Source: Voacanga thouarsii (taxonomy: Eukaryota; Streptophyta; Magnoliopsida; Gentianales; Apocynaceae). From it: a stretch of 64,000 nt of DNA. The notes under the pieces were generated by a model. The model saw only the letters and a program-made list of their open reading frames with translations. It was not told the DNA's origin and ran no database searches. Position numbers and translations under genes: made by a program. The stretch is taken from the NCBI GenBank assembly GCA_026120185.1, contig JANUWF010002051.1, forward strand, positions 62,001 to 126,000, given 5' to 3'. Below, in pieces: positions 1 to 19,452 of this stretch (positions within the stretch are counted from its first letter, which is position 1; each line of letters starts with the position of its first letter).

Positions 1-722
1 ATTTTCTTATAGTGATATTAGAAAATATTTAAAATACAAAATATATCTATTTATATTTGTAGGGGTGTTTTGGTCATTTTAGTAGCCATGGCGATATATC
101 TTTTTGGTCCTCGAAATAACCCATTAGTCCTAATTAATTTTAGGTTGAGGAAATAGTCTCAGTTGAAAAAGATTTTATTTTATTCAGGAAGTCTAATTTA
201 TTATTGGACTAGAATAAAATAAAAGGGCGAGAGAAATTAAATTAATTTATTGTCTAATTTGATTGGTTAATTAATTATTCAATGCCTAAGCCCATACTGA
301 ATAATAGAAAAATTAACATGGGTCTAAACTAGATAAAAGACTTGAATAATTATTTTGGTCTATTTTGGGTTATCTTTATAAGTCTAGAAAATAAATAATT
401 AATGTTTATTATTTTTGGGCTTATTAGATCTTGGAAAAACAATAAAAATATTAATGGCTCAATAGCTTGGATCAAAGGGTTTTTTTTTTTTTTATCATTC
501 ACAGAACATAAGAGTTTAGGATGTGGTAAACATCTTCTGTTGATAACTTCTGAATGTTTTGAAAAACTAAAACCACGGCGTTTTGGTTATCAAGGGTGAA
601 TCCGTGTGTATTAGTGAGATACACATCTGTGAACGAAAAAAATATTCTCCCAAAAGTCTTTCTTTTTCTCTCGTCTTCTTCTTGTGTTCTTCTTGATTTT
701 ACTAATTAATAGCAGAGAGTCA
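1..722 (+). mobile_element. Copia LTR fragment, left part (split by CACTA1)
   Basis: This stretch resembles the reverse complement of the Copia-1 LTR; the opening bases correspond to the complement of about 33264 running downward. It therefore belongs to a related but clearly diverged LTR whose transcription direction is plus. The window starts inside it, so its 5' end and left TSD are not visible. At 720-722 it is interrupted by CACTA1 with TSD TCA, and it resumes at 19453. Short open frames here have no similarity to known proteins. It could be a solo LTR or the 3' LTR of an element lying to the left. Confidence 0.7.
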
Positions 723-1690
723 CATTACAAGAAATCATTATTTTTCCTACCAAAAATTCACAAATTTGGTAGGAAATTGCATTTTCCTACGATTTTCCTT
801 CCAAACCTAAGTGGTCGGAAAACCCCTTGTAGGAAAAAAATTTCCGTCCAAATTTTTATTTACAGTTGGAAATTCGGGACCAAAAATATGGTAGGAATAT
901 AAGTATTTGGTCAGAAATTAGCAACTAAATAAGTCAAATTTTTTTTAGACCAAATTATTTTGGTAGGAAATAATTGAAAAACTTCCGTCCAATAAATTTG
1001 GGAGGAAATTAGTTTTAAAACATAATATTTTTAAAAATAAATTAAATTTCAAACAAAATTATTTGGTAGGAAACATTATTTCCAAAAATATAAATAATGT
1101 TTCCGTCCAAAATATTTGGTAGGAAATTATTTTTAAAAATAATATTTTTAAAAGATAAATTAAATTTCAGACTAAATTATTTGGTAAAAAATATTATTTC
1201 CAAAAAATAAATGATGTTTATGGCCAAATTTATTTGATAGGAAATTAATTTTAAAAAATAATATTTTCAAAAAATTAAATTAAATTTCTGACCAAGTATT
1301 TGATAGGGAAAATTATTTCCAAAAATTAAATAATGTTTCCTACCAAATTAATTTGGTAGGAAAGAATTTTTAAAAAATATGTAAATAGCTCTGACCAAAA
1401 TATTTGGAAGGAATTTTTTTTAAAGACATATTTCCGACCAAAATAGTTGGAAGGAAAATTTTTTGAAAAATATTTCCTACCAAATATTTTGTAGGAAACA
1501 AAAATTTTTCTAAAAGAAATTTTTTTCCTACCAAAATGTGGTAGGAAATTTATTCTTCTTAAAAAAATATTGTTCCTACCAAAACTTTTGGTCGGAATTA
1601 ATTAAAGGAAGTATAGTTCTTACCAAATAGTTTTGGTCTAAAATTTTTTTATTTGAAAAAAATATTTTTTGCTTCCACATTTTGGTCGAA
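723..1690. repeat. CACTA1 left subterminal repeat array
   Basis: Many copies of TTTCCTACCAAA-like and TTTGGTAGGAAA-like motifs alternate in both orientations about every 30-60 bases, with AT-rich spacers. Neighbouring copies can pair as hairpins. In En/Spm elements such arrays bind the TnpA-type protein. Similar motifs recur at 17825-19449, which shows that the two arrays belong to one element. Confidence 0.85.
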
Positions 1691-1823
1691 AACAGAATCA
1701 CAAAATAATGTGAATAAATCAATATAATATCATATTTAAGTTGACTAATAATATTATATTCTAATAAAATATATATATCCTGAATCTGAAATAAACTCAA
1801 CAAAACAATATGTAAATTGTCAA

Positions 1824-2439
1824 CAAAATTCTTCGGTAACTCTAAACTATGTTTCTATGAGCTCCTTTGTACACCCGTGGACCAACTCAAAATAGCATTT
1901 TCTAACTTACTCTTTCTATCATCAGCATCCAAGGAATTAGCATTTTTATTGCTCTTGTTTTTATCTCATCCAGTGAAAACTTCAAATTTAAATATATATT
2001 CTGTATATTTCTCAAGGAATCACTAGGCGAATCCGATTCTGAATTTTCATCATCATCTCCACTTCTCAGCCATCATGGATGCCTTGGTTTGGAACTAGCA
2101 ATTTTAGTGAGATATGTATTACAATACTCTAGCCACGACAAGAGGTGAATGTTTTTCAATCCATTGGCACGACATTTGGTCCAAAGTTACTTATCAACAA
2201 CCAAATTCAGAAGAGCCCAGTAATAGACTATTGGTTGTGCAAATCAACAAGAAATCCATAGTCAAGAGCTTGAAAGGATAAAAAATCAATGTTAAAAACC
2301 TTTTCTAAAGAACTGTAGTCAACATATCATAGATTCACCGTGGCAATAGAATATGAAAGGAGAAAGAATTTTGCATCCTCTATGTATATCACATGACCTC
2401 CATTTTTAGTGGCAACAATTGGCAAACCATGAGCTGCAG
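1824..2439 (-). pseudogene. SPS: Captured sucrose-phosphate synthase gene fragment
   Basis: Read on the minus strand, the first exon piece (about 2439-2378) encodes AAAHGLPIVATKNGG, a conserved stretch of the glycosyltransferase domain of sucrose-phosphate synthase. A splice-acceptor-like pyrimidine tract ending in TACAG precedes it. After an intron-like gap, a second piece (about 2262-1824) encodes [44 protein letters not shown], then NSESDSPSDSLRNIQ and DADDRKSKLENAILSW. These occur in the order and spacing expected for the end of the glycosyltransferase domain and the linker to the phosphatase-like domain. At least three frameshifts and several stops interrupt it, so no enzyme can be made. 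It abuts the left subterminal repeats of CACTA1 and follows the DDB1-like fragment on the same strand. The retained intron points to DNA-level capture rather than retroposition. Confidence 0.85.
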
Positions 2440-2474
2440 CTGTACAAGAAAAAGCAATAATGTCTATGTTCTAT

Positions 2475-3986
2475 TAAGAAAACTTTGCCTACCAATCTTT
2501 CAAGCATGATTAGTAGCGTGAAGTTTACCCAAACTTGCTATCCAACCTTGTGACAACTTCTCCTACGTTAGAATCCCATTGAAGAACACAAAGTTTGTGT
2601 CTCTTTGTTGCGGTGAAGAGAAGATCTTGAGTTTCACCCTGTCAATTTGATGGCAAAACATGAGTAAGATCAAAGACAATCTGAAACAATTAACTAGTTG
2701 ACCAAAACTTATAATAGCAACTTGAACCTTGCATGAAGCTGGAAAAGCTCAAGTGTTGCAATTCTTCCATCTATTGGAACATCCAACATAGGCTGCAAAT
2801 GAATAAAGAATTCAAATCAGCTCTAGAAGAATTAATGCCACTAACAATAGAATCTCTTCAAGCTAAAAATGACAATGACTAATTCATATAGCAGTATATA
2901 TATACTTGAACAATCATATGCAAGGTTCAAATATGTGAGACAATCATTCTGAAAAAGAGTTTAATTATGTGAGACCAAAGAATGAATGCAATAATACTCC
3001 TAAAGGGATATATTGCTATATAAGTAATTGAATACGTATGTAAAAGGGAAAAGTTAATGCCATATTTCTTTTTTTTTTTTTTTCTATCATGGCCCAACTA
3101 TTAATTGCAACTACCATAATCACATTTGCAAGTGGATATATAGAACCTTATATTAAATAATCAGACGAAACTAGGTATATGAAGTTTAGCATTATTGACC
3201 TAATGCTACACCATGAAAAGTTACTAAAGCAAAATCCAGGCAACAATATGAAACTTGTGATGAATGTAGACAACTTCCCCCTAGGTGGACACATTTCAAC
3301 ATCTATGGACCTCATTTTGCACAATCCTCCGAACCTAGAAATGTCATGATTGAAAGGGGAAAGCAGACTTTATTCTATCTAGGATTCTCCAAGGACTACA
3401 AGTTTTAGCTCCATTTATGAGGTCAGGGGCATGATTAGACATCATGTACAAATACTGATCACATAATAGTAGCACTTGCAACAAAAATTGTTTAGAAGCA
3501 TTCAAAATTTTCATCAAAATCTCACTACTAAAGCATATGTAGTAAGCCCTTTAGAGGCCTGAGGTCGCGTTGGTTCATTCTTCGGTGATACTAATCAATA
3601 CTGGTTCATTCCTAATCATAAATGGAATGATAATGAATATTTGGTATGCTGCTCTCCACAACCACAAAATCATGATGAATGGGATAGGTAAACCATATAG
3701 ATATAAAGCTAAAATTCAGCTTTAGAATAAAAGTATTGTAAGACATTCCAATTCATACAGCAAATATACACACATTCATAAAATAGTGCAGGGATAAAGT
3801 CAACTTAATCAATTAAGTACAAAAGGATTCATGAGTGGTGAATAATGTACAACAAAAGACACTTGCAGGGAAGAAGAGTAACTACTTAACAAACTCAAAT
3901 ATGTCTCAACTTCTAGAAGCTAAATAGGAAACTGCACTTGTAGACCTTGGGGAGTAAGTAGATGAATATCTATTCTTCCGCATTTC
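2475..3986 (-). pseudogene. DDB1: Captured DDB1-like gene fragment (three exons)
   Basis: On the minus strand three exon-like blocks match the N-terminal beta-propeller region of DDB1, the adaptor of CUL4 ubiquitin ligases. Block one (3986-3938), after a TTTTTGTCAG acceptor, encodes KCGRIDIHLLTPQGLQ. Block two (2792-2732), after TTTGCAG, encodes PMLDVPIDGRIATLELF. Block three (from 2638, after TTGACAG) encodes GETQDLLFTATKRHKLCVL followed by QWDSN. The blocks are consecutive in DDB1 and are separated by introns of about 1.1 kb and 93 bases, so the capture was genomic. The match fades after about 2540, with stops, and gives way to the SPS fragment near 2440-2475. The first DDB1 exon was not found. 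The donor site after block two is altered (CA in place of GT). The fragment is too short and damaged to encode a working propeller. Confidence 0.85.
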
Positions 3987-4699
3987 CTGACAAAAAATAA
4001 AAATTTGATACAAACATTTTCTAGTAAAATGCACATCAAATTGATAAAGAAAAACAAAGGATAGGTTAAGAAGGATAAAAAATTACTATGATTTCAAAGT
4101 TGGACAAAACAATAGGCATCTAATAATATGATAATTCCTTCTTCCTTGCCATATTGATTGGGTGATTTTTCAATTTATATACTTCTTCATATGCATTATT
4201 CTGCTATATAAACCCTCATGACCAAATATCCATTGATAACATGTAGGTGGCATTTCAAACAAGTCAATCAAAACATACACTGAAATCATTAAAGGATCAT
4301 ATATGCTATGCAGAAGAGAGATTTAAGAGATGAAGTATTTGTAAAATAGGTGTGAGTATATGCATGTATTCCCCCTAAGATTGGCAGCAGGCCTACAAGA
4401 GAATGAACCACTTAAACAACACTCATGAGATATTCACTTTGTAGCTAAATATTCTTCATTTTGGCTAACTACATCTCTAATTAAAATCTTCAAACAATTT
4501 AAAAAAACCAAAAAATAAAGAAAAAAAAATCAATCTTCTAAACAAAAAAGGAAACCAATGAACTATTTTTGCCCTTTCTTTTTTTTTTTTTTTTTTTTGG
4601 CATCAACTACTTTGCAAGAAATCTAAAGTTAGCAAGAGTACCTAAAGAAATGAAAATATTCACACTCAAAAAACAAATGAATATTTTCATCCATTCTAG
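3987..4699. other. Intron-like spacer upstream of the DDB1-like exons
   Basis: AT-rich DNA with a long T tract at 4576-4598 and no recognisable coding. By position it would be intron 1 of the captured DDB1-like fragment, but no upstream exon was found before Copia-2 begins at 5169. Confidence 0.4.
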
Positions 4700-5030
4700 T
4701 CCACTTGAGGTCATACTTTGATTAAGCAACACACTTTTCACCTTTTTTTATGTAATTGCTAATTTTGGGCAACCTCTTTCCATGGTTTGCCTTCAGTATT
4801 CTAGTCTTACTTATCCCAACCTATCCACATATTCTTTTTTTTAGCATGTTGACCTCCAAACATGCCAATTCCAGTCTATAATTTTTCATCTAAAGGTTCT
4901 ACTCTTATTGTCATTCCTAACATCCATCTTTTCAATTCTCATGTTTTTTCTATTGCAATTCAAATGTTGTAAGCTATGTTACACCTTTTTCCTTCTAATT
5001 TATGGGTTCGCTATGGTAAATAAAAGTTCT
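4700..5030 (-). pseudogene. Possible LINE reverse-transcriptase tail
   Basis: The minus strand can be read, with stops, as LKRWMLGMT, then RVEPLDEKL, then GMFGGQHAK, then GKPWKEVAQ. This resembles the C-terminal end of plant non-LTR retrotransposon reverse transcriptases (RWMCG...KV.V.PIE.KMRE...RWFGHVQRR...RPKKTW). Only this tail is visible and the match is loose. It may be a very old 5'-truncated LINE insertion within the captured intron. No poly(A) tail or target duplication could be assigned. Confidence 0.3.
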
Positions 5031-5168
5031 TAATGCATTCCACTCATGCAAAATTCAATACTACTGTAAATTAAATCACTTCAAATGTATTCAACCACTC
5101 TCCCCCATCTTTGAAATAAGAGTATTTCTTCCTATTGAAGGAACTTTTGCAACTCAGATCAGATACAC

Positions 5169-6758
5169 TGATAAACCTTAGAGGGGGTGAATAAGGTTTA
5201 CGGTAAACAAATGCAATTTTTTTAAAAAAAAAATTCTTTGATATCTTGTTGATAAAGGCTGAACAAAGTGTGAGTTAAAAAATGCAACTTGAATGTGCTG
5301 CTAAAGAACTTTCAAAACTCCTCTAAATAATGAAAAGAAGATCTATAGTTAAGATGGGTAGATACAACAACAATAACAGTTTCACCGAATTGCATAAAAG
5401 TCTTTAATTAAATCAATGAATGTAAGGAGGAGTATAAAGCTCAAGTTAGATGAATAGTAAAAACGCAAGTATAAATATCATATTAGCTTCACAGCTGAAG
5501 GAGTGCAGACATGAATCTTTTGAAACACCACTAAATGGCGAGAAAATGGTTTGTTTTAAAGATGGGCAATTGAGGCATTAAAGACAAACTTTCTATAGAC
5601 TGTAAAGGTCTTTAAAACTGATCAACAATTGCAGAGATTAAGAAAAAGTTCTTTGATCTAATGACCAGAAAAAATGCAGTGATAAAGTGCAGATGAAATG
5701 CAAAAGAAAAGACCCAAGGATTTATAGTGGTTTGATCCTCAGTTGATCTACATCTACTACCTTAAGTACCCACTTAAGGATTTCAACACAATCACTAAAA
5801 CGTTTTTTTCAAATCAATGGTGGTAGGCAAAACTAATCTTACACAAGAAGATCGCCACACTTGATTTTACACCCAACCTCTTAAACCTACAAATCAAGGA
5901 TCACCCCAACTGGATTTTACTTTCTTAACCTTGATACACAATAATTCAAGGCTCACCCCAACCAGGTTTTACTTTTCAAAACCTTGATACAAAGTTGATA
6001 AAAGATAGAGTATAGAAATAGCTCACAGATTGAGCAGATATGAACATCTAAGCATAAATACCTTTTTACCTTTGGAACAATTTGATTTTACTTTAAAATA
6101 GAATGAAAAAGGAGATTTTTGTATTCCAAAGTGTAAGAGTGTTCTGAGTGAGATAGCACAAAAATTAACTTCAAAATCTAGTTTTAAAGGCTTTTATAGG
6201 AGCAAAAAGTAAGACAACAACGGTTAGTAACAGCTAGTTTTTGCTATTAGATTCTTTAGAGTTTTGGACTAAAAGATTAGAAGAAGGTGTGTCCAAAAGA
6301 TGAGTCCAAAATGGCACTTTTTTTAGGCAAAAACATTTAAACACCGTTCCAAAGTTTTGGACGAAGCTTTTGGATGTAGAGTCCATCCAAACTACTCAAT
6401 CCAAATATCTGAATGCTTACTCTTTGAAATCATTTTATTTGTGTGCTTTAAAGTAGAAATAAATTGAATCATAAGGTTAAGAGACATAAGAATTTTATAA
6501 GAAATACTTTAACATTGATTCCTAGTCTAAAGTTCTTTCACAAGGACTTCATGATCTTGCAAGCTCTTAGATTGAAGATATTACTTTGATCAATCACCTC
6601 TTTGGATTCCATTTGCTTAAGAGTTACTTAGCAATCATATTTGCATGCCTTGGAAGAACTAAGGCCAAACATGTCCTATTATATATAAGTCACACAAATT
6701 AGTCCTCATCAATATTCTTCATAAGTAAAAACATAGGAAAATGCCCTTAGGGCTAACA
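5169..6758 (-). repeat. Copia-2 3' LTR
   Basis: Direct repeat of 13723-15310, matching along its whole length with scattered differences. It starts TGATAAACC and ends GGCTAACA. For this minus-strand element it is the 3' LTR and lies next to the polypurine tract at 6759. Confidence 0.9.
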
Positions 6759-6777
6759 GTCTCTCCCTTTTTGAGTG
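6759..6777 (-). other. Copia-2 polypurine tract
   Basis: On the minus strand the bases just before the 3' LTR read ACTCAAAAAGGGAGAGAC, a purine-rich tract of the kind that primes plus-strand DNA synthesis. It lies directly beside the LTR boundary. Confidence 0.75.
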
Positions 6778-8398
6778 ATGACAAAGTTGATGGGATTGTA
6801 ACATGGAAACAATGATATATACAGTATGGACATGTTAGACAAAGAGAAATAAGAATATTTTTAACTGAAATACATTCTCTCATTATAGGACTCAAAGAGT
6901 GCTTATGAGATTAAGATAATAAAATTCAAGTATTGTCTCATAAATAATGCTCAATAAGCCTATGGCCCAACCTACCTCCTTATCCTCCTTTCTTCCATCA
7001 TAGGACTATTTCACAAGAAAAATGGCCGCAAATAGCAGTCACAAAAAAATGTATAGATATGTACATGAGATGTAGAAGATAAATCATAAAATGTAATGCT
7101 CCCCCTACGTATGTGTATATGTAAACAAAAGATAATGAGATGCTAGCCATGAAGTGCATTTGAGAATAAAACTGGATTTCACAATTTTGGACTTTCAAAA
7201 CGTGCATCCAAAATGGGTAAAAATGAGGCAGAAACTAACCTTTTAAAAAGTCATTTTTGGACTGCTATTTTAGATTGAATAAATGCGGATCTAAAACTCC
7301 TTCTATGTATGTGTAGGGTAAAAATGAATTTTCAAAAAGATATATCAGAGGTTTTTAACCCAACCCAGTTTTCTCAAGGTATTTCAAACACAAAGAATTT
7401 TCCATGCAACCAAAAAAAACTTTTTTATAAGTATAAATATCCTTATCATCCAAATATTTAACAAAATACACATCACAACCATAGTCAAGAAACAAATCAT
7501 CAAGCCAAGTTAAAATCAGTTGGAATGCACAATGAACTCATAACCACACTTCAATTTCCTTAGTCTATAACAGCAACAACGTCTCAACATAGTCTCCATT
7601 AAGTCACCCAATTCATCATAGTCCACATTTTCAAACCATAACCATAAGTAGTCATAGTTCATCTTAAATCATATGAATTTATCATCCTCATAAACAGTCA
7701 CAATCATAATCTATAAATTTCAAATCATACCCTTCATAAACCATCATGCAACCACAATATATTCACAATTCACAATCCATATTTATAAGAGCAAAAACCA
7801 ATGGAAGAGATATCATGATAGCAAAAAGAAATTTCTACAGCACAATGTTTGATCAACCAAAATCTCAAAAATGTATTTCAAAGAATCACAAGCTTCCTAA
7901 GAAATTTTTAGTCTCCACATCACAATCTCCTCTTAGTTTACAGCACAGTTAGTTTACAGCACAGTCTCCATAACCACATCAAGCCATCTATTCACAATCC
8001 CCCAACAATATATTTTCTTCCTCTTTGTCGTCAATCAAAGAAAATAATAACAATAAGCAGTAAAGAAGCAATCAGTAGTAAATTAGCAGTAATATCGAGA
8101 GAATGCCCAAAATATGGACAGTAATAAGCAACATTAGCAACAATAAGCAGTAGTACCAGTTAAAGATAAAAAAAAAAAAAAAAAGATGTTCATGAAAATA
8201 TAGTGCAGAGAGCATATGCCATATCTTATGGAATGAGGTCATCAGTAAGAAAGTTGTGTCATCGGAAAAAAAAGTTGGAAGAACAGGTCATTAGTCATCA
8301 GCCGTCGTGTGCTACATCTCAAGGAATGAAGATAATCACAGGCTTAGCACTGGCACCCTTCCTTGAATGCTGTTCAACAATTCTGTTGGACTTCTATT
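6778..8398. other. Copia-2 post-pol non-coding stretch
   Basis: AT-rich sequence between the polypurine tract and the extra reading frame. It has runs of CAATAAGCAGTA-like words near 8050-8160 and an A tract at 8168-8184. Short open frames in either direction have no recognisable similarity. Confidence 0.5.
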
Positions 8399-9885
8399 TT
8401 ACCATGACATACTTCTGCCATCTACCAAATGCAGTTGGTTTATCTTGCTTGGGAACTTCCTTGTCAATAGTGGATACAACCGTTGTGGGTTCCTTGGTAT
8501 GCAGAGATGGGACATTAGTAATATCAATCTCTTTTTCGTTCTCTTTCTCAGTCTCCTTCTCTGGCTAAACATCAATTTCTTCCCGTGTTGAAAGAATGAT
8601 AGGTTCAAGCTATGGCATGGGTGGAGGAACTTGTTCAATCGAATCGCTTGTAGCTTCATATTAATTTTTTTCCACATTTATCAGTCTATTTCCCAAATTT
8701 TTTAGTTCACCTTTAACTTCTACACTCAGACTATCTAGCTTGATAGATAGCAAATTTATAGCATCCAAAATACTTTAAGTTATTTTACTTTCCTAATTTT
8801 TCTACTTCCCTCAACTTGATGTTTCCCCTTGAATTTCAGTTTTAGATTTTCTTCTTGTTCGTCCTGATGTAGCAGATTTTTCCTTAGCCTTCACCAATTT
8901 TTCTTCCTCTCCTTTAGTGGCTTCTCTAAGTAATATCCATTGATTATTCACTTGAATGGACCCCATTTTCTCAAATGAATCTCTACTATAGATGTTTACC
9001 TTGTAGTGCTCAGGGACAACCGCACTCAAATCAACATTGAAGTACTTGAATAGCTTGGTGAGAAGGATTCCAAAAAGTAACGCTTTGTTTGATGTGCTTT
9101 GAGATTGAGTCATCGATTTCACAGCCAAAAACCCAAGGTTAATTTGTTTTCCTTCTAACAGAGCCAGCATCAACATTATTTGTAGAATACTTACAGATGT
9201 CTTGTGGCCAAAACTAGGTATCAACATGGTTGAGCCCATATGATGTAGCAATCTTCCCAGTTCATTTAACCATTTGGCTTTTCAATCACTTAAATTTCTA
9301 AAACTCTTGGCACCAATAAATTTCATCTCAAATTGACTCACTAAAAAATTCAGAAATTTTCAAACAGTTTGTTCATTTCAAAAAATTGTACTCCACTGTC
9401 TCTGAGTGCCTATACTTTTCCTCTTCTGCAAGTTGTTTTGATAATACAGTTTGAGGAGTTGGTTCATCAATGGCAACTCCTTTTTCCTTCTTCTTTGCAG
9501 ATATCGATTTAGCAACAACTGATTTCTTTTTCATTATCTTATGTTTCTTGATCTCCTTCGTTATTAGCTCGGCCCCTTTGCTGTGTTTTGGAGTTTTATC
9601 CATGGTGAACAGGATTGAAGGGTTTGATTTTTCTGGTTTTTTTGGCGAGAGATTGGAAGCCAGAAGAAAGAGCAAAATGCTAAGAAGAATGACAGCTTTT
9701 TTTTTTTTTTTTAAAAGAGAAGAAGATTCAAATAGATTTGAATTCTTTTGGGGGTTTATGAGGTATTGAAGAGTATAAGTACAATTTAGTACATTTGAGA
9801 AAGGTGATTTTTGAAAATATATAAAGATATTTTGATACGAAGAGAGAGAGTGTGTTGTGGCTGGAATGAAAAAATGTGCGAACAT
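8399..9885 (-). pseudogene. Copia-2 additional ORF after pol (plant transposon protein-like)
   Basis: Three minus-strand reading pieces (9885-9373, 9251-8811, 8677-8399) appear to come from one broken frame. The first contains a lysine-rich stretch (KEIKKHKIMKKKSVVAKS) and begins with a hydrophobic N-terminus of doubtful meaning. The second contains LLFGILLTKLFKYFNVDL, then YSRDSFEKMGSIQVNNQW, then a basic tail. This resembles the uncharacterised plant transposon protein domain often found as an extra frame in SIRE-type and other plant LTR elements (GMLLT..F..FGVDL...RMG). It lies downstream of pol in the same direction. Its function is unknown. It is broken between the pieces, so it is not translated as one protein now. 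Confidence 0.55.
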
Positions 9886-9959
9886 TTAGAGTTTAAAAGA
9901 TTTGATCATTTGGACACAAATTGTCCATCCGATTTCCCTGTCCAAAAGGTGTGTCACAC

Positions 9960-10950
9960 GTGGTCAAAAGATATTGAGTTTTCACTTAAAATATAATTCA
10001 AGTACTGCATCCAATATCTCTATGCAAAATCAAAGGATCTTCAGAAATTCTGCAAGAATAAACAACCAATCTCTAGCAAAATCATTAGTTACATAATCTG
10101 GTAATTCCCAAACCTCTCCTCAGATAATCGAATCATTCTTTAGCCAGTGGTTTGTGAATATATCAACTTCTTTTGCTTCGTTCATTCCAAATCTTTTGAG
10201 AAGTTCCTTGACATACTTGGCTCGATTGAGGAAGATATCATCTATGGTTTATTTGATTTGTAATCCAAGGAAGAAATTAAGTTCTCTTATCATACTCATC
10301 TCAAACTCTTGCTGCGTTGTCGTGATAAATTTCTTGCATAAAGAATTATTAGTAGTTCCAAGGATAATATCAACATAGATTTGAACAGTAAGAATGTCTT
10401 CAGAAATTTTAAATTTATTAAACAAAGTATATCAATCAATCATCTTGAAAAAGCTTTCGAATGTAAAAATCCACTAAGACTTACATACCAAGCACGAGGA
10501 GCTTGTTTTAAACCATAAAGAGTTTTGAAAAGGTTGCTCCATATATACTTCTTCTTCAATAAAACCATTTAAGAAAGCACTTTTGACATCTATTTGATAG
10601 AGTATAAAACCATTGAAAGATAGAAAAGCAAGTAACATTCTAATAGATTCTAATCGAGCAATGGGAGTAAAAGTTTTATCATAGTCAATGCCATCTTCCT
10701 GATTAAATCCTTGGGCAACTAATCTAACTTTATTTCTAATAACAATGACATGCTCATCAAGCTTGTTTTTGAAAGCCCACTTAGTATCAATTATAGGATG
10801 GTCAAGTGGTCTAGAGACAAGCTTCCAAATTTGATTCTTTTTAAATTGGTTTAGCTCTTCTTGCATGGTCATAATCCAAAAATTTATCATGTAAGGCTGC
10901 ATCAATAAAATTAGGTTCAGTGCTAGAAAGTAAAATAAAATTATCAACAA
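9960..10950 (-). pseudogene. Copia-2 reverse transcriptase and RNase H remnant
   Basis: The minus strand from 10950 reads EELNQFKKNQIWKLV, KWAFKNKLDE, RNKVRLVAQGFNQEDGIDY, then KSAFLNGFIEEEVYMEQPF, the N-terminal half of a Copia reverse transcriptase. It continues with shifted frames to QIYVDIILGT, where the catalytic YVDD has become YVDI, then FEMSMIRELNFFLGLQI and AKYVKELLKRFGM. At about 10160 the reading jumps to DIFTNHW, matching the DIFTKPL motif at the end of RNase H. The rest of the polymerase thumb and most of RNase H are therefore deleted. With the active-site change the enzyme is inactive. Confidence 0.85.
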
Positions 10951-12060
10951 AATACCGTATAATTTTAACTCCGCAGCTAGATCACCAATGATTTATTCTT
11001 TTGGATGGACAGTTTTGTACTTCCAAAATCTTGGCATATTCTGATCAATATGCTCGACACTTCTTTTCTCACTTTGTTCAACTTGTTTTTCTTCTAATTC
11101 TTCTTCTTTGGCATGGTTGTCAAGTGATGGAACTTCATGATGTTTAATGCCATTTCTCTTTGAGCTACCTGCATTATTGTCATCTTTTTGTGTAGAAGAT
11201 AAGGTCTCAGTAAATCTCAAAAAATCATGTATTTATACATAAGCATACCTCTTACCATCTAGGCTAGTAGTCCTTATTAGTCCAAACAAATCCATGTGTA
11301 TGATCTCAAGAGGTTTTGACGTTGAAATCATTTTCTTGGGTTTAAAAGAGGTTTAGGTTTGTTTTTCAAATCAGCAAGCATCACACAATTGGTTTTAGTC
11401 AAATATCATTTTGGGTAGTCCTTTCTCAAGCTCTTTTGAGGACAATCTATTTGACAAATCAATAGAGACGTGTCCTAACCTTCTATGCCAAAGGTAGCCA
11501 TCATCATTTGTGGAAAAGCATTTTACATCATGAGCAATAGAATCATCAAGATATAATATATAATCATTACCAATGCAATTGGAAACAAAAAAAAAAAATT
11601 ATTTCTTCATTAGAATTATCAATGATAGTGCATGAATCTTTTCAAAATTAACCTTGCAACAATTGTCACACAAATGATTAATACTAAGCAAATTATACTT
11701 TAATTCATCAATCAATAATACTTGCTTAATAATGATGGAGGATCCCTTACCAACATTACCTATATAGAGTATTTTTCCTTTTTCTCATCTCCAAATATGA
11801 CATATCTATCATTTGCAACTTGAATGTTATCCATTAATGCTACATTTCCCATCATGTGTCTTGAGCATCCACTATCCAAGAACCACTTTGTGGAGCTCAA
11901 TTCTTTGTAGCTAATGTATCTATTCATGAGATGGAAGAATGGCTTTTGGTACCTACATTTTCTTAGATCCACGGAGGTTAGTAGTGGTTTCTCTAATTTT
12001 CCAAACTGTTTTTGAACCGGATTCCACTTTCTTCTTAACATGACACCTAGATGCTTTATG
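10951..12060 (-). pseudogene. Copia-2 protease, GAG-pre-integrase and truncated integrase
   Basis: WFLDSGCSRHM, read on the minus strand near 11890-11845, carries the aspartic protease DSG motif. Further downstream LWHRRLGHVSIDL and CDACRFEKQT mark the GAG-pre-integrase and zinc-binding region, and MDLFGLIRTTSLDGKR marks the start of the integrase core. Around 11215 the reading passes from the beginning of the core straight into a low-complexity acidic linker (HAKEEELEEKQVEQSEKR). Most of the integrase catalytic core is deleted. Several stops are present. Confidence 0.8.
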
Positions 12061-12190
12061 TCTAAATTTCACAATATGTGCAACAATTGTGTGTCATATA
12101 TGATGAAGCAACTTTTACAAAGTGAGATTTGTAATTTCCAGCTTTGATCTCATGCCTATAGCCTAGACCATTTTGGTTTCCAGCTATGTG

Positions 12191-13600
12191 TTATGCACTA
12201 AGCAATTTTTCCAAATTATTTTTTCCATTTGTAAACTTTTCAATGCATGTAGTGAGATCATCGACTCTATTTTTCATATCATCAAAATTGCTAACCATAA
12301 TTTCAAGAGAATGAATTTTATCATATAAGTATTTATTTTCTAGAGACATATGATGCAAGGAGGTAATGATAACATCCTTTTCAATATTTGCACACATATG
12401 TGACTCAAGTGAGACTTTGTTCTTATTCAATAGCTTTGTATTCTCATCTAACAAACTGTCAATTTTCATCTTCATTTCTTTATTTCTTCTAGACAACTTT
12501 TTTAGTTCATGAAATATGTCAAATAGCAATTCATTAGGTTCATCATGCAAATTGGTTATCAATTCTGGAAAAGTAGGATTTACCTTATCCTCCATAGCCA
12601 TGAAGTAAATGTTTGCTTTTTCATCTTTAGAATCACGACTTTCTTCTATCTCAGATTCAGCTTGATCCCAAGTTCCAATCAATCCTTTTCTTTTCTTCTT
12701 GTTGTGCTTGGCTTCTCTTTCTTTAGCTCTTGGACAAACAGTAATAAAATACTCCGTACTCTTGCATTCATAACATTAAGATTTGAAGGACGAAGTTTGT
12801 CCTTCCTTTTTGATAAACTTCTTTCTTTTGCTAAAGTTGTCTTTTTTGAACATCTTTTTGAATTTTTCAGCTACCATAGCCAATTCTTCATTGCCTAGAT
12901 CAGTACCATCATTACAATCGGTTTGATCACTATTAGATTCTTCATCAACTGCTTTTAAAGCAATTCCCTATTCACCTTTGTCATCACCTCATGCTCTTGA
13001 AACCTTTTAAGTTTCATTTCATGGGTCAAGAGGGAGTCAACTAGCTCTTTAGTAGGTAAGTTGTTCAGGTTTTTAGATTCCTCAATAGCTAAGGTTTTTT
13101 GCTACCAACTTTTTGGCAAAGCATCAAACATTTTTCTATTTTGCTCACTAAGGGAATAAACTTTCCCATAGGGCTTTAGACCATTCATGACATTTGTAAA
13201 TCGAGTGAACATATCAGTTATGTTCTCACATGGCTTCATAGTGAATAACTCATAATCGTAGACTAAAAGTCGTAGCTTTGATTCCTTTACTTGATTAGTC
13301 CCCTCATGGGTGACTTTCAGTAATCTCCACATTTCGTAAGCTGAATCACAACTACTAACCCAGTTGAAATCATTAGCATCAAGAGCACAGTACAATATAT
13401 TCATTGCCTAAAAATTCAAAGTCATTTTTGAAATATCCTCATTATCATATTCATTACTCTGTTTAGGCATTTTTCTACCTTCAACAAATTTTGACAAGAC
13501 AAATGGTCCATTCTCAATCAAATTCCACAGCTCAAAGTTGATTGAGAAAATAAAAAATATTCATTCTATTTTTTCAAAATATGTAATTGCTTTAATTGAA
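12191..13600 (-). pseudogene. Copia-2 gag
   Basis: The minus strand from about 13560 reads LWNLIENGPFV, then YCALDANDFNWVSSCDSA, YEMWRLLKVTHEGTNQVK and LLTHEMKLKRFQEHE, the UBN2-type gag of plant Copia elements. A zinc-knuckle remnant, CYECKSTEYF.TVCP, lies near 12780; its histidine is replaced by tyrosine. The distal part (12682-12191) is a predicted coiled coil rich in L, K, N and E (ELKKLSRRNKEMKMK), typical of long SIRE-type gags. Stops and frameshifts separate the pieces. A nucleocapsid without the knuckle histidine would be expected to bind zinc poorly. Confidence 0.8.
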
Positions 13601-13708
13601 CAAAGAAGGTCTACATGTGGAAGACCCTTGAATGTAAGGTAGAACAAATATGTTTGCCATAAGGATCTTTGCTAAAAGGCTGTTAAGCCGAGGATAATGT
13701 AGACCAAC

Positions 13709-13720
13709 TCTCTGATACCA
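13709..13720 (-). other. Copia-2 primer-binding site
   Basis: On the minus strand TGGTATCAGAGA lies two bases after the 5' LTR end. It matches the 3' end of initiator methionine tRNA (usual form TGGTATCAGAGC). Confidence 0.85.
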
Positions 13721-13722
13721 AT

Positions 13723-15310
13723 TGATAAACCTTAGATTGGGTGAATAAGGTTTATGGAAAACAAATGCAATTTAAAAATAATTCTTTGATGTCTTTTTGA
13801 TAAAGGCCGAACAAAGTGTAAGTTAAAAAATGCAGACTTGAATGAGCTACTAAAGAGCTTTCACAACTCCTCTAAATGATAAAAAGAAGATCTATAGTTA
13901 AGATGGATAGACAAAGCAATAATAATAGTTTCACCCAACTACATAAAAGTTTTTGATCAAATCAATGAATGCAAGGAGGAGTATAAAGCTCTCAAGTCGG
14001 ATAAATAGTAAAAATGCAGGTATAAATATCATATTAGCTTCGTAGTTGAAGGAGTACAGATATGAATCTTTTGAAACACCATTAAATGGCAAGAAGATGG
14101 TCTGTTTTAAAGATGGATAGTTGAGGCATTAAAGACATACTTTCGATAGAACACAAAGGTATTTAAAACTGATCAACAATTGCAGAGATTAAGAAAAAGT
14201 TCTTTGATCTAATGACCAGCAAAAATGCAGTGATAAAGTGCAGATCAAATGCAAAAGAAAAGACCTAAGGATTTATAGTGGTTCGATCCTCAACTGATCT
14301 ACATCCACTACCTTATGTACCCACTTAAGGATTTCAACACAATCATTAAAACCATTTTCCTAAATTAATAGTAGTAGGCTACACTAATCTTATACAAGAG
14401 GATCACCACACTTGGTTTTACACCCAACCTCTTAAACACACAAATCAAGGCTCACCCCAACTGGATTTTACTTCCTTAACCTTGATACACAATAATTCAA
14501 GACTCACCCCAATCGGATTTTACTTCCCAAAACCTTAACACAAAGTTGATAAAAGATAGAGTATAGAAATAGCTCATGGATTGAGCAGATATGAACAGCT
14601 AAGCATAAATACATTCTTACCTTTGGAGCAATTTGGTTTCACTTTGAAGCAGAATGAAAAGGGAGATTTTTGTATTCTAAAGGGTAAGAGTGTTTCTGAG
14701 AGAGATAGTACAAAAACCCACTTCACAATCGTGTTTTGAAGGCTTTTATAGGAACAAAAAGTAAGACAGCAACGGCTAATAACGGCTAGTTTTTTGCTGT
14801 CAGATTTTCTTGAGTTTTGGACTCAAAGATTGGAAGCAGGCGCATCCAAAAAGTGAGCTCAAAATGGCACTTTTTTTAGGCAGAAACATTTAGACATTGT
14901 TTTAGAGTTTTGAACTAAGCTTTTGGTTGCAAAGTCCATCTAAACTATTCAATCTAAACATCTAAAAGCTTACTCTTTGAAATCATTTTATTTGTGTGCT
15001 TCAAGGTAGAAATAAATTGAATCATAAAATAAATAAACATAGGAATTTTACAAACAATACCTTAACAATGATTCTTAATCTAAAGTTCTTTCACAAGGAC
15101 TTCATGATCTTGCAAGCTCTTAGGTTGAAGTTGGACTTTGATCAGTCACTTCTTTAGATTCCATTTACTTAAGAGATGCTTAGCAGTTATATTTGCACGT
15201 CTTGGAAGAATTGAGGTCAAACATGTCCTATCACATATAAGTCACATAAATTAGTCCTCATCAATGTTTGTCATAAGTCAAAATACAAAACAATACCCTT
15301 AGGACTAACA
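13723..15310 (-). repeat. Copia-2 5' LTR
   Basis: Direct repeat of 5169-6758, starting TGATAAACC and ending GGACTAACA. It should hold the promoter of Copia-2. The many substitutions between the two copies suggest an old insertion. Confidence 0.9.
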
Positions 15311-16864
15311 CACACATCAGACCTACTACACCACCCATCCTTGGGAAATAGTCCATAGAAGACATATTCCAACGGGTTTCATTTTCCAACCGTCTATAGT
15401 TTCTATTTCTATCATTTGGTTCCCCCTTTTGGTCTATCTATATTCCAAGAAATTCATTGCTCCATAGACAGAGCAAAAAGTGAAGTTACAGTCACAGCAG
15501 CTCCACTATTTATCAATGTAATGAAATTTCCAATTACGCAATGCAAGTACTTATTTACCTCTAGTATTTATCAATTTGTGTCCTATTTGGTCTTTGTACC
15601 TATCTTCAAGATTGATTCCATGTATTCAATTTAACAATTATCTAAAACATCCTACATTGCAAGGGTTCTCCATCCAACTCGAATTTAGCAAGTCATTATG
15701 CCACTTGTAGCACAGTTTATTTCCATGGTGTCAAACCCCAAAGAAAAAAAATCCAAGACCCTAATTATATCTAATTTTTCATAAACCATACAGAAACCCA
15801 GAATGTAATCATGAAAGTACAAATGCACCTCATACTACGAAAAATGACATATTCCTCTCAGAAGATCTGAAATACACCACATTGTAAGAAAAATTCAGAC
15901 ATGACCCAAAAAAATCCAAAAACCTCAAAATTGTGGACCTGAATGCTTTTTTCTCCAACAAACCTCAAGAATATAGGCGCCATCAAAAAATTCAAAATGT
16001 GCCGTACAGTATGAGAATTTCATACAGAACGGACTCAAAAAGGCAATGAGTTCGATCTATTCTCCAAATATTTCAAAAGAAATTAACATAGCGTAATATC
16101 CCCACTCCATTCCAGCGAATTTTTTTTTTCAAAAAAGCTAGAATCTTTATGTCTATTAGAGCTGGTTGGTGGTGGACAACCCCATAATGGATTCCCCAAC
16201 TACAGTTTTGGAAAGCTGCTAATTATGAGGCTGCTTCTTGTTTTCGGTTGTTGCTTTTGCCTACTATCAGCAAAATTTAAAGCTTTGGCAACCAGACTCT
16301 TTTTTTTTTTTTTGGTAAAAAAAACCCAAAAACTTAAATCCACACTCAAATACAATTTAACTCATGAAACAAAATTAACAAATTCCAATTTTGCAATTTC
16401 AAATTATGAAACAAAACCAATATACCCAATTTATTTGCACACTTTGTAGTCACCGTTTATGTCCAGGGATTGGACAAAGCACCCGCCTTTTCCTAGGAGA
16501 AGCGGCTTTCGTGTTACCAAAGTTCGATTGCTATGGCTGCAAGTTGGAGGGAAACTCTTTTACGAGAAAAAGAAAGGAAAATTTAGAGGTGGATTACGAG
16601 GGTTTTTTGTTATTTCTTCTAGCAAAACTCTCTTAGCTCCCGCTATTTTTCCTTCAATTTCTTCTCTTTATTTTATTTTTCAAATGTTAATATTTCAATA
16701 TAATGAATATTATAGAAAAAATATAAAAATTTTCAATCTCTATGGATTAAATAATCAAAGTGATAAAATTATACATATTTATCATATAATATATTTTATT
16801 GTAACAAATAAGTTAATGTTGAAAGTATATTTACTAATTTAAAATTTAAATAATAACTTCATAT

Positions 16865-16867
<3 letters not shown>

Positions 16868-16902
<35 letters not shown>
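16868..16902. repeat. (TA)n microsatellite
   Basis: An uninterrupted run of TA dinucleotides of about 35 bases within AT-rich DNA. Confidence 0.95.
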
Positions 16903-16903
<1 letters not shown>

Positions 16904-17346
16904 TTCAAGTTACTTATCACAGTTATACCTTATACTTTAAAAACTAAAAATATTTATATATATTAACATTTACTTATTTACAGTGGCATCAAAAAATTTA
17001 TTAAATTAGAACTTAAAAAATTAAAAATATAATAATTATATCAAAGTAGCAATTTTTTTTCTTTTACAAAAGGATTACATATGCATACAAATTTTACTTA
17101 CCAAAAATTCATTCTATGTTGTTGAAAGTTCATTAAGAGTTCCAATTGATCATGAAAAAGAAAAAAGTTTTTATCAACTATTATTTTTATAAATTTGAAA
17201 TTTTAAAAATATAAAAGTAATTAGAAATTATAAGTAGGTGATCATTACCAAGACAAAAAAGTCTTAACTTATTTTATAATGCTCTTGCTTCATAATATTC
17301 TATAACACTTCATCTAAAGTACACTATACATGCATAGGTGCGCACG

Positions 17347-17348
<2 letters not shown>

Positions 17349-17399
<51 letters not shown>
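17349..17399. repeat. (TG)n(TA)n microsatellite
   Basis: A short TG run passes into a long pure TA run of about 46 bases. Confidence 0.95.
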
Positions 17400-17401
<2 letters not shown>

Positions 17402-17824
17402 ATCATCAAAATACTCGAATTGACTTTATCAGAGAAGTAGAAATGAGTTTGACCCCTTACTTCAAATTTGATATCTAATTTAAGAATCGTGTAAAAAAAA
17501 CATAAGATTCTAGGGAAGAAAGACGTTGGAAAACAGTTAAATTAATAAATTATCTAGTAAAATTAACTATAGAAACTTTATATGATGAAATTAATCAACT
17601 ACGTTTTTTATTAGATCATTTGATGAATTTTTTTTTTGTAATCAAATGTAAATAACCTAAAATGACAAAACAAATACCACATATACTTTATCTAGTAATA
17701 CTAATTAGTTTTCAGTGACACGTTAATATCTTAGGAAAATTCTTGCAAAATTATTCTGTTATGTTCATTTTTTTAACTATTTTTTTTTAATTGACTTAAA
17801 AATTAAGAATGAATTTTTAATTTT

Positions 17825-19449
17825 TAATTTCCTACCAAAAATAATGTGGTCGGAACTTTTTTTTTTCAATTCCCTCTCAAATACAAATTGGTTGGAACAC
17901 ATACTGTAAGTTAAATAAATATTAAATTAAATTTTTACTCAAAATTTTAAATTTTAATTAAATATCCGACATCAAATAAAAGTGGTTAGAAGATAACTAT
18001 CCCTTTTCTACCAAAAATTGCATTTGGTCGAAAAATTAATTCTCCCCCAAAAAAAAATTTAAAAATTGAATTCGGCTAAAAAAAATATGTTTGGTCAAAT
18101 TTTAATTACATTTTCCTACCAGATTATCCTTTTCATCGAAAAGTATTTTTATTCCTACCAAACTTGAAGGCGGTTGGAAATCAAATAGTCTTGTCAACAA
18201 AAAATACTATTAAATTTATAATTTGATTTCTTACCAAATGCAGAAACTTTAATTTAATATTCCATTACCATTTCAAACCATAAAAATGATTGCAAGGTAA
18301 TTTGATTCATGGTCCCTACCAAAATTCATCTATACTCGAAAATGTAACCTTTATTCCTTTCAAAATTAGTTTGGTGGGAAATTATATCTTCTTCAAGAAA
18401 AAAAAATTGAAATTATAAATTTAATTTCCATCCCCAAGAAACAAAATAATTTTTTGGAGAACTAAATCATATTTCCTAGCACATTTCAAAATGGTCGGGA
18501 AAACAATTTTTAAACTCCTACCAAAATTACTTTTGATCCAAAATTCTTTAAGAAAATAAAATTTAAATTATAAATTTAATTTCCACCTTTGAGAAATAAA
18601 ATAATTTGTTAGAGAATTAATTAATATTTCCTACCAAATGCAAAATGGTCAAAAAAATATTTTTAAACTTCTACAAATATTAATTTTGGTTGGAAACAAA
18701 TATTTTTGTGAAGAAAAAGGATGAATAATTTAAAATTTTCATTTTCATTTCCTTCTAAATAATTATATAGTTAGAAATGCATTTTTACTTTCCTTCTAAA
18801 ATAGCATTGGTTAGAAATAATTTATTATTTTCATACCAAATCTCAATTTGATGGGAAAGTTTTAACTAATGTTCCTACCCATAAACTTTTGGATGGAAAT
18901 GTAGCTATTTTCCCTACCAGAATGTATATTAGATGGAAATAGAGCTATTTTTCCTACCAAAATGTGTGTTGGACGGAAATGTAACTAAATTTTCCTACCA
19001 AAATGTGTGTGAGAAGAAAAGGTAGCTATTTTTTCCTACCAAAGTGTATGCTGTACGGAAATGTAACTATTTTTCCTACCAAAATATATGTTGGACGAAA
19101 ATGTAGCTAAATTTTCCTACCAAAATGTGTGTTGGACGGAAATGTAGCTATTTTTCCGACCAAAATATTTGTTGAATGAAAATGTAACTTAACTTTCCTA
19201 CCAAAATTTTTGTTGGATGGAAATGTAGTAATAGTTTCCTACCAAAATATATGTTGGATGGAAATGTCGATATATTTTCCTACCAAAATGTATGTTGGAC
19301 GGAAATTTCCAACTCTAATTCCTACCAACATGAGTGTAGTCAGAAAGCCCCTACCAAGTACTTCTTTGGTAGGAAATAGGTAGCTAAATTGCTACCATTT
19401 AGTTTTGGTAGGGAACTTTTAGTAGGAAATAGGTAGTTTTGTTGTAGTG
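17825..19449. repeat. CACTA1 right subterminal repeat array
   Basis: Repeated units of roughly 60 bases contain TTTCCTACCAAAATGTGTGT followed by TGGACGGAAATGTAGCTA. They are especially regular from about 18900 to 19310, where some ten copies run in tandem. The array ends with the terminal inverted repeat at 19449. It is longer and more ordered than the left array. Confidence 0.88.
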
Positions 19450-19452
19450 TCA

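Follow-up and report, generated by a model that had tools for sequence, protein, structure and literature searches.

How fragments of two unrelated plant genes came to lie joined within a transposable element is the question raised by the window analyzed here, a 64-kb stretch of DNA (bases 62001-126000 of contig C1022) from an assembly of 1.35 Gb and 1,848 contigs. The original prediction described DDB1 exon blocks that run straight into two exon blocks of sucrose-phosphate synthase (SPS), all on one strand. DDB1 encodes an adaptor in DNA-damage and ubiquitin pathways, and SPS an enzyme of sugar synthesis. Every one of these blocks is present, on the minus strand, and both gene families were correctly named, with source genes located elsewhere in the assembly on contigs C1210 (SPS) and C770 (DDB1). 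We conclude, with a probability of roughly 0.9, that the locus is a presumably non-autonomous Pack-CACTA element that carries genomic segments of SPS and DDB1, introns included, and that has moved as a unit.

The join was predicted to lie inside a CACTA element, and the borders of the element bear this out. The complete element spans 723-19449 on the plus strand (18,727 bp including a nested retroelement), opens with CATTACAAGAAA, closes with TTTGTTGTAGTG, and is flanked by matching 3-bp TSDs, with TCA directly preceding the left end (720-722) and TCA directly past the right end (19450-19452). These ends are CACTA terminal inverted repeats, the left one being a single change from CACTACAAGAAA. 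A second copy on contig C518 aligned piecewise from 723 through to 19449 with the same ends. All three elements for which both ends were recovered had a 3-bp TSD, which was TCA in the window, AAG in C518, and GTT in a related element on C503. The motif TTTGGTAGGAAA, allowing at most one mismatch, occurred 38 times in the 64-kb window compared to 0.96 expected by chance, and 37 of the 38 hits fell within two end clusters (743-1583 and 17828-19429). The left subterminal repeat region (723-1848, plus strand) had 16 hits in both orientations and was common to C518, C503, and C992, and the right subterminal repeat region with the right end (17828-19449, plus strand) had 21.

Element backbone occupies 16317-17827 (plus strand), of which the part up to about 17340 is repeated at many genome places and the remainder is common to C518. 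Most of 16317-17360, the latter being where the search query stopped, recurred at ~70-88% in many other places (40 of 61 candidates scored), and by that recurrence it appears to be the backbone of the family. Alignment and the genome search, with the same 40 of 61 candidates scored, matched the segment at 15825-16316 otherwise only in C518. For the most part these ~490 bp matched neither the DDB1 nor the SPS loci, and they are possibly a third captured fragment. Seven selected ORFs lying outside the nested retroelement were scanned against Pfam (E 0.01), and none had a match. Left of the element, ~480 bp (window 1-485) were similar to C503 and C518 sequence outside their respective elements (75-81%) and belong to another repeat family.

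Read 5' to 3' on the minus strand, the cargo consists of part of DDB1 intron 1, DDB1 exons 2, 3, and 4, the start of intron 4, an SPS intron, the SPS exon AAAHGLPIVATKNGG, and the start of a large SPS exon. The SPS cargo (1849-2529, minus strand) contains two exon parts with introns and is both frameshifted and interrupted by stop codons. Its exon limits were fixed by alignment to the C1210 gene, which placed AAAHGLPIVATKNGG at about 2380-2439 and the start of the next, large exon at about 1849-2268. The first part of the DDB1 cargo (2528-5168, minus strand; C770 alignment 2528-5165) extends from the start of intron 4 through exons 4, 3, and 2 with their introns into intron 1. The exons were located on the minus strand by tblastn at 2547-2638 (exon 4), 2733-2792 (exon 3), and 3938-3985 (exon 2). 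The second part (15311-15824, minus strand, from the C770 alignment) is further intron 1 sequence that ends before exon 1, and exon 1 itself was not found in the window by tblastn. The extent first proposed, 1824-3986, does contain the exon blocks but understates the DDB1 cargo, which continues to 5168 and resumes at 15311-15824.

Positions 1849-2529 matched the C1210 SPS gene (E 3.6e-256, 89%) and positions 2528-4000 matched the C770 DDB1 gene (E 0, 90%). Both matches were at the DNA level and included introns, so the SPS and DDB1 blocks are not chance similarities. A search of the assembly with 1800-4000 matched at least ten places, the window itself among them. The C518 match crossed the junction (query 1-1156), the C1210 match stopped there (query 50-730), and the C770 match started there (query 729 on), while C503 was matched by two pieces. 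C943, a second SPS gene, gave a 66% match, and the left part had three short matches, one on C992 and two on C125. In Pfam searches of the fragments, the SPS piece had one glycosyltransferase match below the cut-off and the two DDB1 pieces had none, and phmmer against PDB with two short window fragments as queries found no match at E 0.1.

Host adjacency of the two genes, raised with the prediction as grounds against it, does not agree with the assembly. Because the SPS donor (C1210, 89% identity) and the DDB1 donor (C770, about 90%) occupy separate contigs, the captured pieces are not host neighbors as far as the assembly goes. On C1210, more SPS exons flank the captured part on both sides, and two exons matched the plant SPS model TIGR02468 (2.1e-150 and 1.5e-122). 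Comparison with an Arabidopsis DDB1a sequence tiled the exons of the C770 gene over its whole coding length, initiator methionine and final residues included, and all 39 PDB matches (E <= 1e-5) to an 86-residue stretch of it were named DNA damage-binding protein 1. Profile searches with PF10433 and PF03178 found nine further loci beyond C770, seven of which were compared with DDB1 (all but L037 and L039, which share a contig with L034). L021, L025, and L033 aligned over long stretches at no more than 24% identity, L034 and L036 matched over just 33 residues (45%), and L022 and L031 had no match at E 0.001. On the comparison of these seven of the nine other loci, C770 appears to be the only DDB1 found in the assembly. 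Intron 4 of the C770 gene also contains, near the end of the captured piece, a reverse-transcriptase-like ORF read by eye (L009:8616-9623), which we take to be of the non-LTR type.

Alignment to the SPS and DDB1 genes of the source genome, as suggested with the prediction, fixed the breakpoint at 2528/2529. The donors meet there from either side, with the C1210 alignment ending at 2529 and the C770 alignment beginning at 2528. The pieces are thus joined intron to intron with a 2-bp overlap (CC) and no transposon motif between them, and the junction is identical in C518. A switch within 2440-2475, the location first given, is rejected: 2440 to about 2528 is SPS intron, and the actual join is some 55-90 bp away. 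TTTGGTAGGAAA (at most one mismatch) was absent between the SPS and DDB1 fragments. Close to the junction, at 2440-2451, is a 12-mer, CTGTACAAGAAA, with two mismatches from a CACTA end. We rejected it as a CACTA-end remnant, since it is the end of an SPS intron and similar in the host gene, and chance matches of this kind are expected (19 with two mismatches found in the window vs 10.9 expected). Random breakpoints in both donor loci produced an overlap of at least 2 bp in 19% of 20,000 trials, so the 2-bp overlap alone is no proof of a capture route, and our view of that route is drawn from the lack of transposon remnants at the join and not from microhomology. An assembly error at this position is unlikely because the junction is present on two separate contigs.

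A search for other genome copies with the same junction, likewise proposed at the outset, is answered by C518. The C518 element is 7,050 bp long, with ends CACTACAAC and CTTGTAGTG and TSD AAG. It is without the nested retroelement and without 2956-4601, and so without DDB1 exon 2. Because the same junction occurs there at another site with its own TSD, the double cargo transposed as one unit after capture. K2P distances between the window and C518 were 0.100 for the SPS cargo and 0.091 and 0.070 for the two DDB1 parts, compared to 0.107 for the left (5') and 0.092 for the right (3') part of the element, so cargo and carrier have diverged to a similar degree, as expected for joint movement. Host-element K2P distances were 0.083-0.121, which would put the capture shortly before the window and C518 copies parted; the estimate is rough, since host SPS changes slowly in the exons that form part of this piece.

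The DDB1 intron 1 cargo in the window is interrupted by a nested LTR retroelement of the Copia type (5169-15310, minus strand) with an RVT_2 match, which has no counterpart at this place in C518 or C770. Its LTRs have diverged more (K2P 0.137) than the element copies (0.092 and 0.107), although the insertion should be younger. Among the LTR differences, transitions strongly outnumbered transversions (149 to 46). When only transversions are counted (46 of 1584 sites in the nested LTRs vs 132 of 3540 between the element copies), the LTRs are the younger pair. The excess divergence is probably due to decay of methylated cytosines.

The complete related CACTA element on C503 (12.3 kb, TSD GTT; G000:C503:1429765-1442089; L015, L016) carries more of this SPS gene, a 2.4-kb piece oriented as in the window, and comparison with C770 found no DDB1 in it. 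Its SPS borders differ from those of the window on both sides, and its match to C1210 extends past both (C1210 local 8067-9753 and 10040-10764). K2P between C503 and the window was 0.131 for the cargo and 0.175 (3' part), 0.262 (5' part), and 0.169 (the stretch before the SPS border) for the backbone. Since the borders differ and the cargo is nearer to that of the window than the backbone is, the C503 piece is likely, though not proven, to be an independent capture from the same donor gene, and a relative that retained the same captured SPS piece is the less likely reading. Weighing against independence are the shared orientation and the shared-site counts for the three groupings (5, 4, and 1), which scarcely resolve the relations. 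On balance we lean toward two CACTA lineages, window/C518 and C503, having each taken this SPS gene separately, with matching orientation. A wider reading that combines such captures with SPS as a preferred donor, and in which small RNAs from transcripts of the double cargo, matching both DDB1 and SPS, would link the host genes in trans, is very improbable as a whole.

In our reconstruction, an element would have taken up one SPS and one DDB1 segment as genomic DNA, and the retained introns argue against an mRNA intermediate. Capture would most likely have taken place when a break within an element was repaired with template switching; we favor this route because the pieces are joined directly with no element remnants, a join that gap repair would fit better than tandem insertion. 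Its later movement as a unit would have relied on CACTA transposase provided in trans from elsewhere.

The two segments may also have been acquired in sequence, SPS first and DDB1 later, by the same growing element. This proposal concerns only the order of events, is compatible with the Pack-CACTA reading above, and merits tentative consideration. In its favor, C992 has the same border between left subterminal repeats and SPS as the window, followed by about 28 bp of SPS before it continues into other sequence, and its flank is slightly farther from the window than the C518 flank (K2P 0.113 vs 0.086). However, nothing to the right survives in C992, which is uninformative on whether DDB1 was formerly present. 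Sites at which both copies agree against the host were also about equally frequent in SPS (31/675) and DDB1 (80/1454), with no age difference seen in a comparison where the SPS piece is partly exon and slow-evolving in the host. A large inverted repeat (L019:2852-4268; 1.4 kb, 67% self-complementary) is situated on C992 where its SPS piece breaks off.

Less probable is tandem insertion, the model in print for Arabidopsis Pack-CACTA (PMC8903248, PMC13317346), in which two nearby elements lose their inner ends and carry off the intervening DNA. Here this would have happened twice, or an SPS-carrying and a DDB1-carrying element would have fused; in either form the proposal bears on the capture route only and not on the identity of the element. 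C503, with SPS and no DDB1 by the C770 comparison, demonstrates that single-cargo elements exist, but the SPS piece there is bounded differently, with no end at 2529. If elements had fused, their ends or subterminal repeats should remain between the pieces, whereas SPS and DDB1 are joined directly, and TTTGGTAGGAAA had no hits in 20 kb around the C1210 donor or in 30 kb around the C770 donor. We consider this route unlikely and retain template switching during capture as the preferred explanation.

The coding capacity of the cargo has decayed. A 1-bp deletion in the first SPS exon, common to the window and C518, breaks the SPS frame, which was therefore lost early, and the window copy has further stop codons. 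DDB1 exons 2-4 of the window differed from the host by 5 synonymous and 15 nonsynonymous changes in 66 codons (omega 0.90), and omega was 0.52 for host-C518 and 0.64 for window-C518 (50 codons each, exons 3 and 4), with site numbers too few to be read as constraint or to exclude weak constraint. In both element copies the GT donor of DDB1 exon 3 in the host reads GC. The distance from the DDB1 intron-4 donor to the SPS acceptor is 107 bases in the window and 105 in C518, and in neither copy would a chimeric splice between them keep DDB1 exon 4 in the SPS frame, with a stop codon encountered in each. Because of the SPS frameshift in both copies, the drift of the DDB1 exons, and a splice that leaves the SPS frame, a working DDB1-SPS fusion gene or protein is not supported by these sequences, and the cargo is presumably without function. 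That the join was selected as a chimeric gene or regulatory RNA is very improbable. The persisting intron-4 donor and SPS acceptor make a spliced chimeric RNA possible, and the cargo of soybean Tgm-Express1 is described as spliced into chimeric transcripts (PMC1947982), but broken frames, stops, the altered exon-3 donor, and no clear sign of constraint stand against it.

The general premise of the prediction, that CACTA elements pick up gene fragments, agrees with multi-locus capture already documented in two studies (PMC1947982, PMC8903248). Unrelated gene fragments have been described together in single CACTA elements before, in soybean Tgm-Express1 and maize Pack-CACTAs, and which genes are caught is incidental. 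A DDB1-SPS pairing in a CACTA element was not found in the open-licence PMC papers searched, and the combination of CACTA and DDB1 returned no title on gene capture from the same source. What the window offers is a well-bounded double gene capture by a CACTA element, for which a single assembly supplies the two donors, the precise join, and a further copy that has moved. The direct join without remnants suits template switching over the printed tandem-insertion model. A single such case changes little, and many of them could test the capture mechanism.

Several known systems are comparable. Tgm-Express1, a soybean CACTA element, contains five fragments from unrelated host genes, one of them from fructose-6-phosphate 2-kinase (Zabala and Vodkin 2007, PMC1947982), sits in an intron of F3H, and was shown to be transcribed. 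The window element resembles it in carrying unrelated host gene fragments in succession with introns kept. Unlike Tgm-Express1, it has two identified fragments, from other genes, with decayed frames. With the Pack-CACTA elements of Arabidopsis and maize it shares CACTA ends combined with host coding DNA (PMC8903248), and it differs from those surveyed in its cargo of DDB1 and SPS and in having no element remnant between the fragments. For animal Pack-TIRs, gap filling or template switching has been argued, with overlaps of a median of 2 bp where present (PMC8277862). The element described here is a plant CACTA with two donors, in contrast to those metazoan elements, and is like them in a short-overlap join, 2 bp in this case, and in the multiplication of some copies by transposition.
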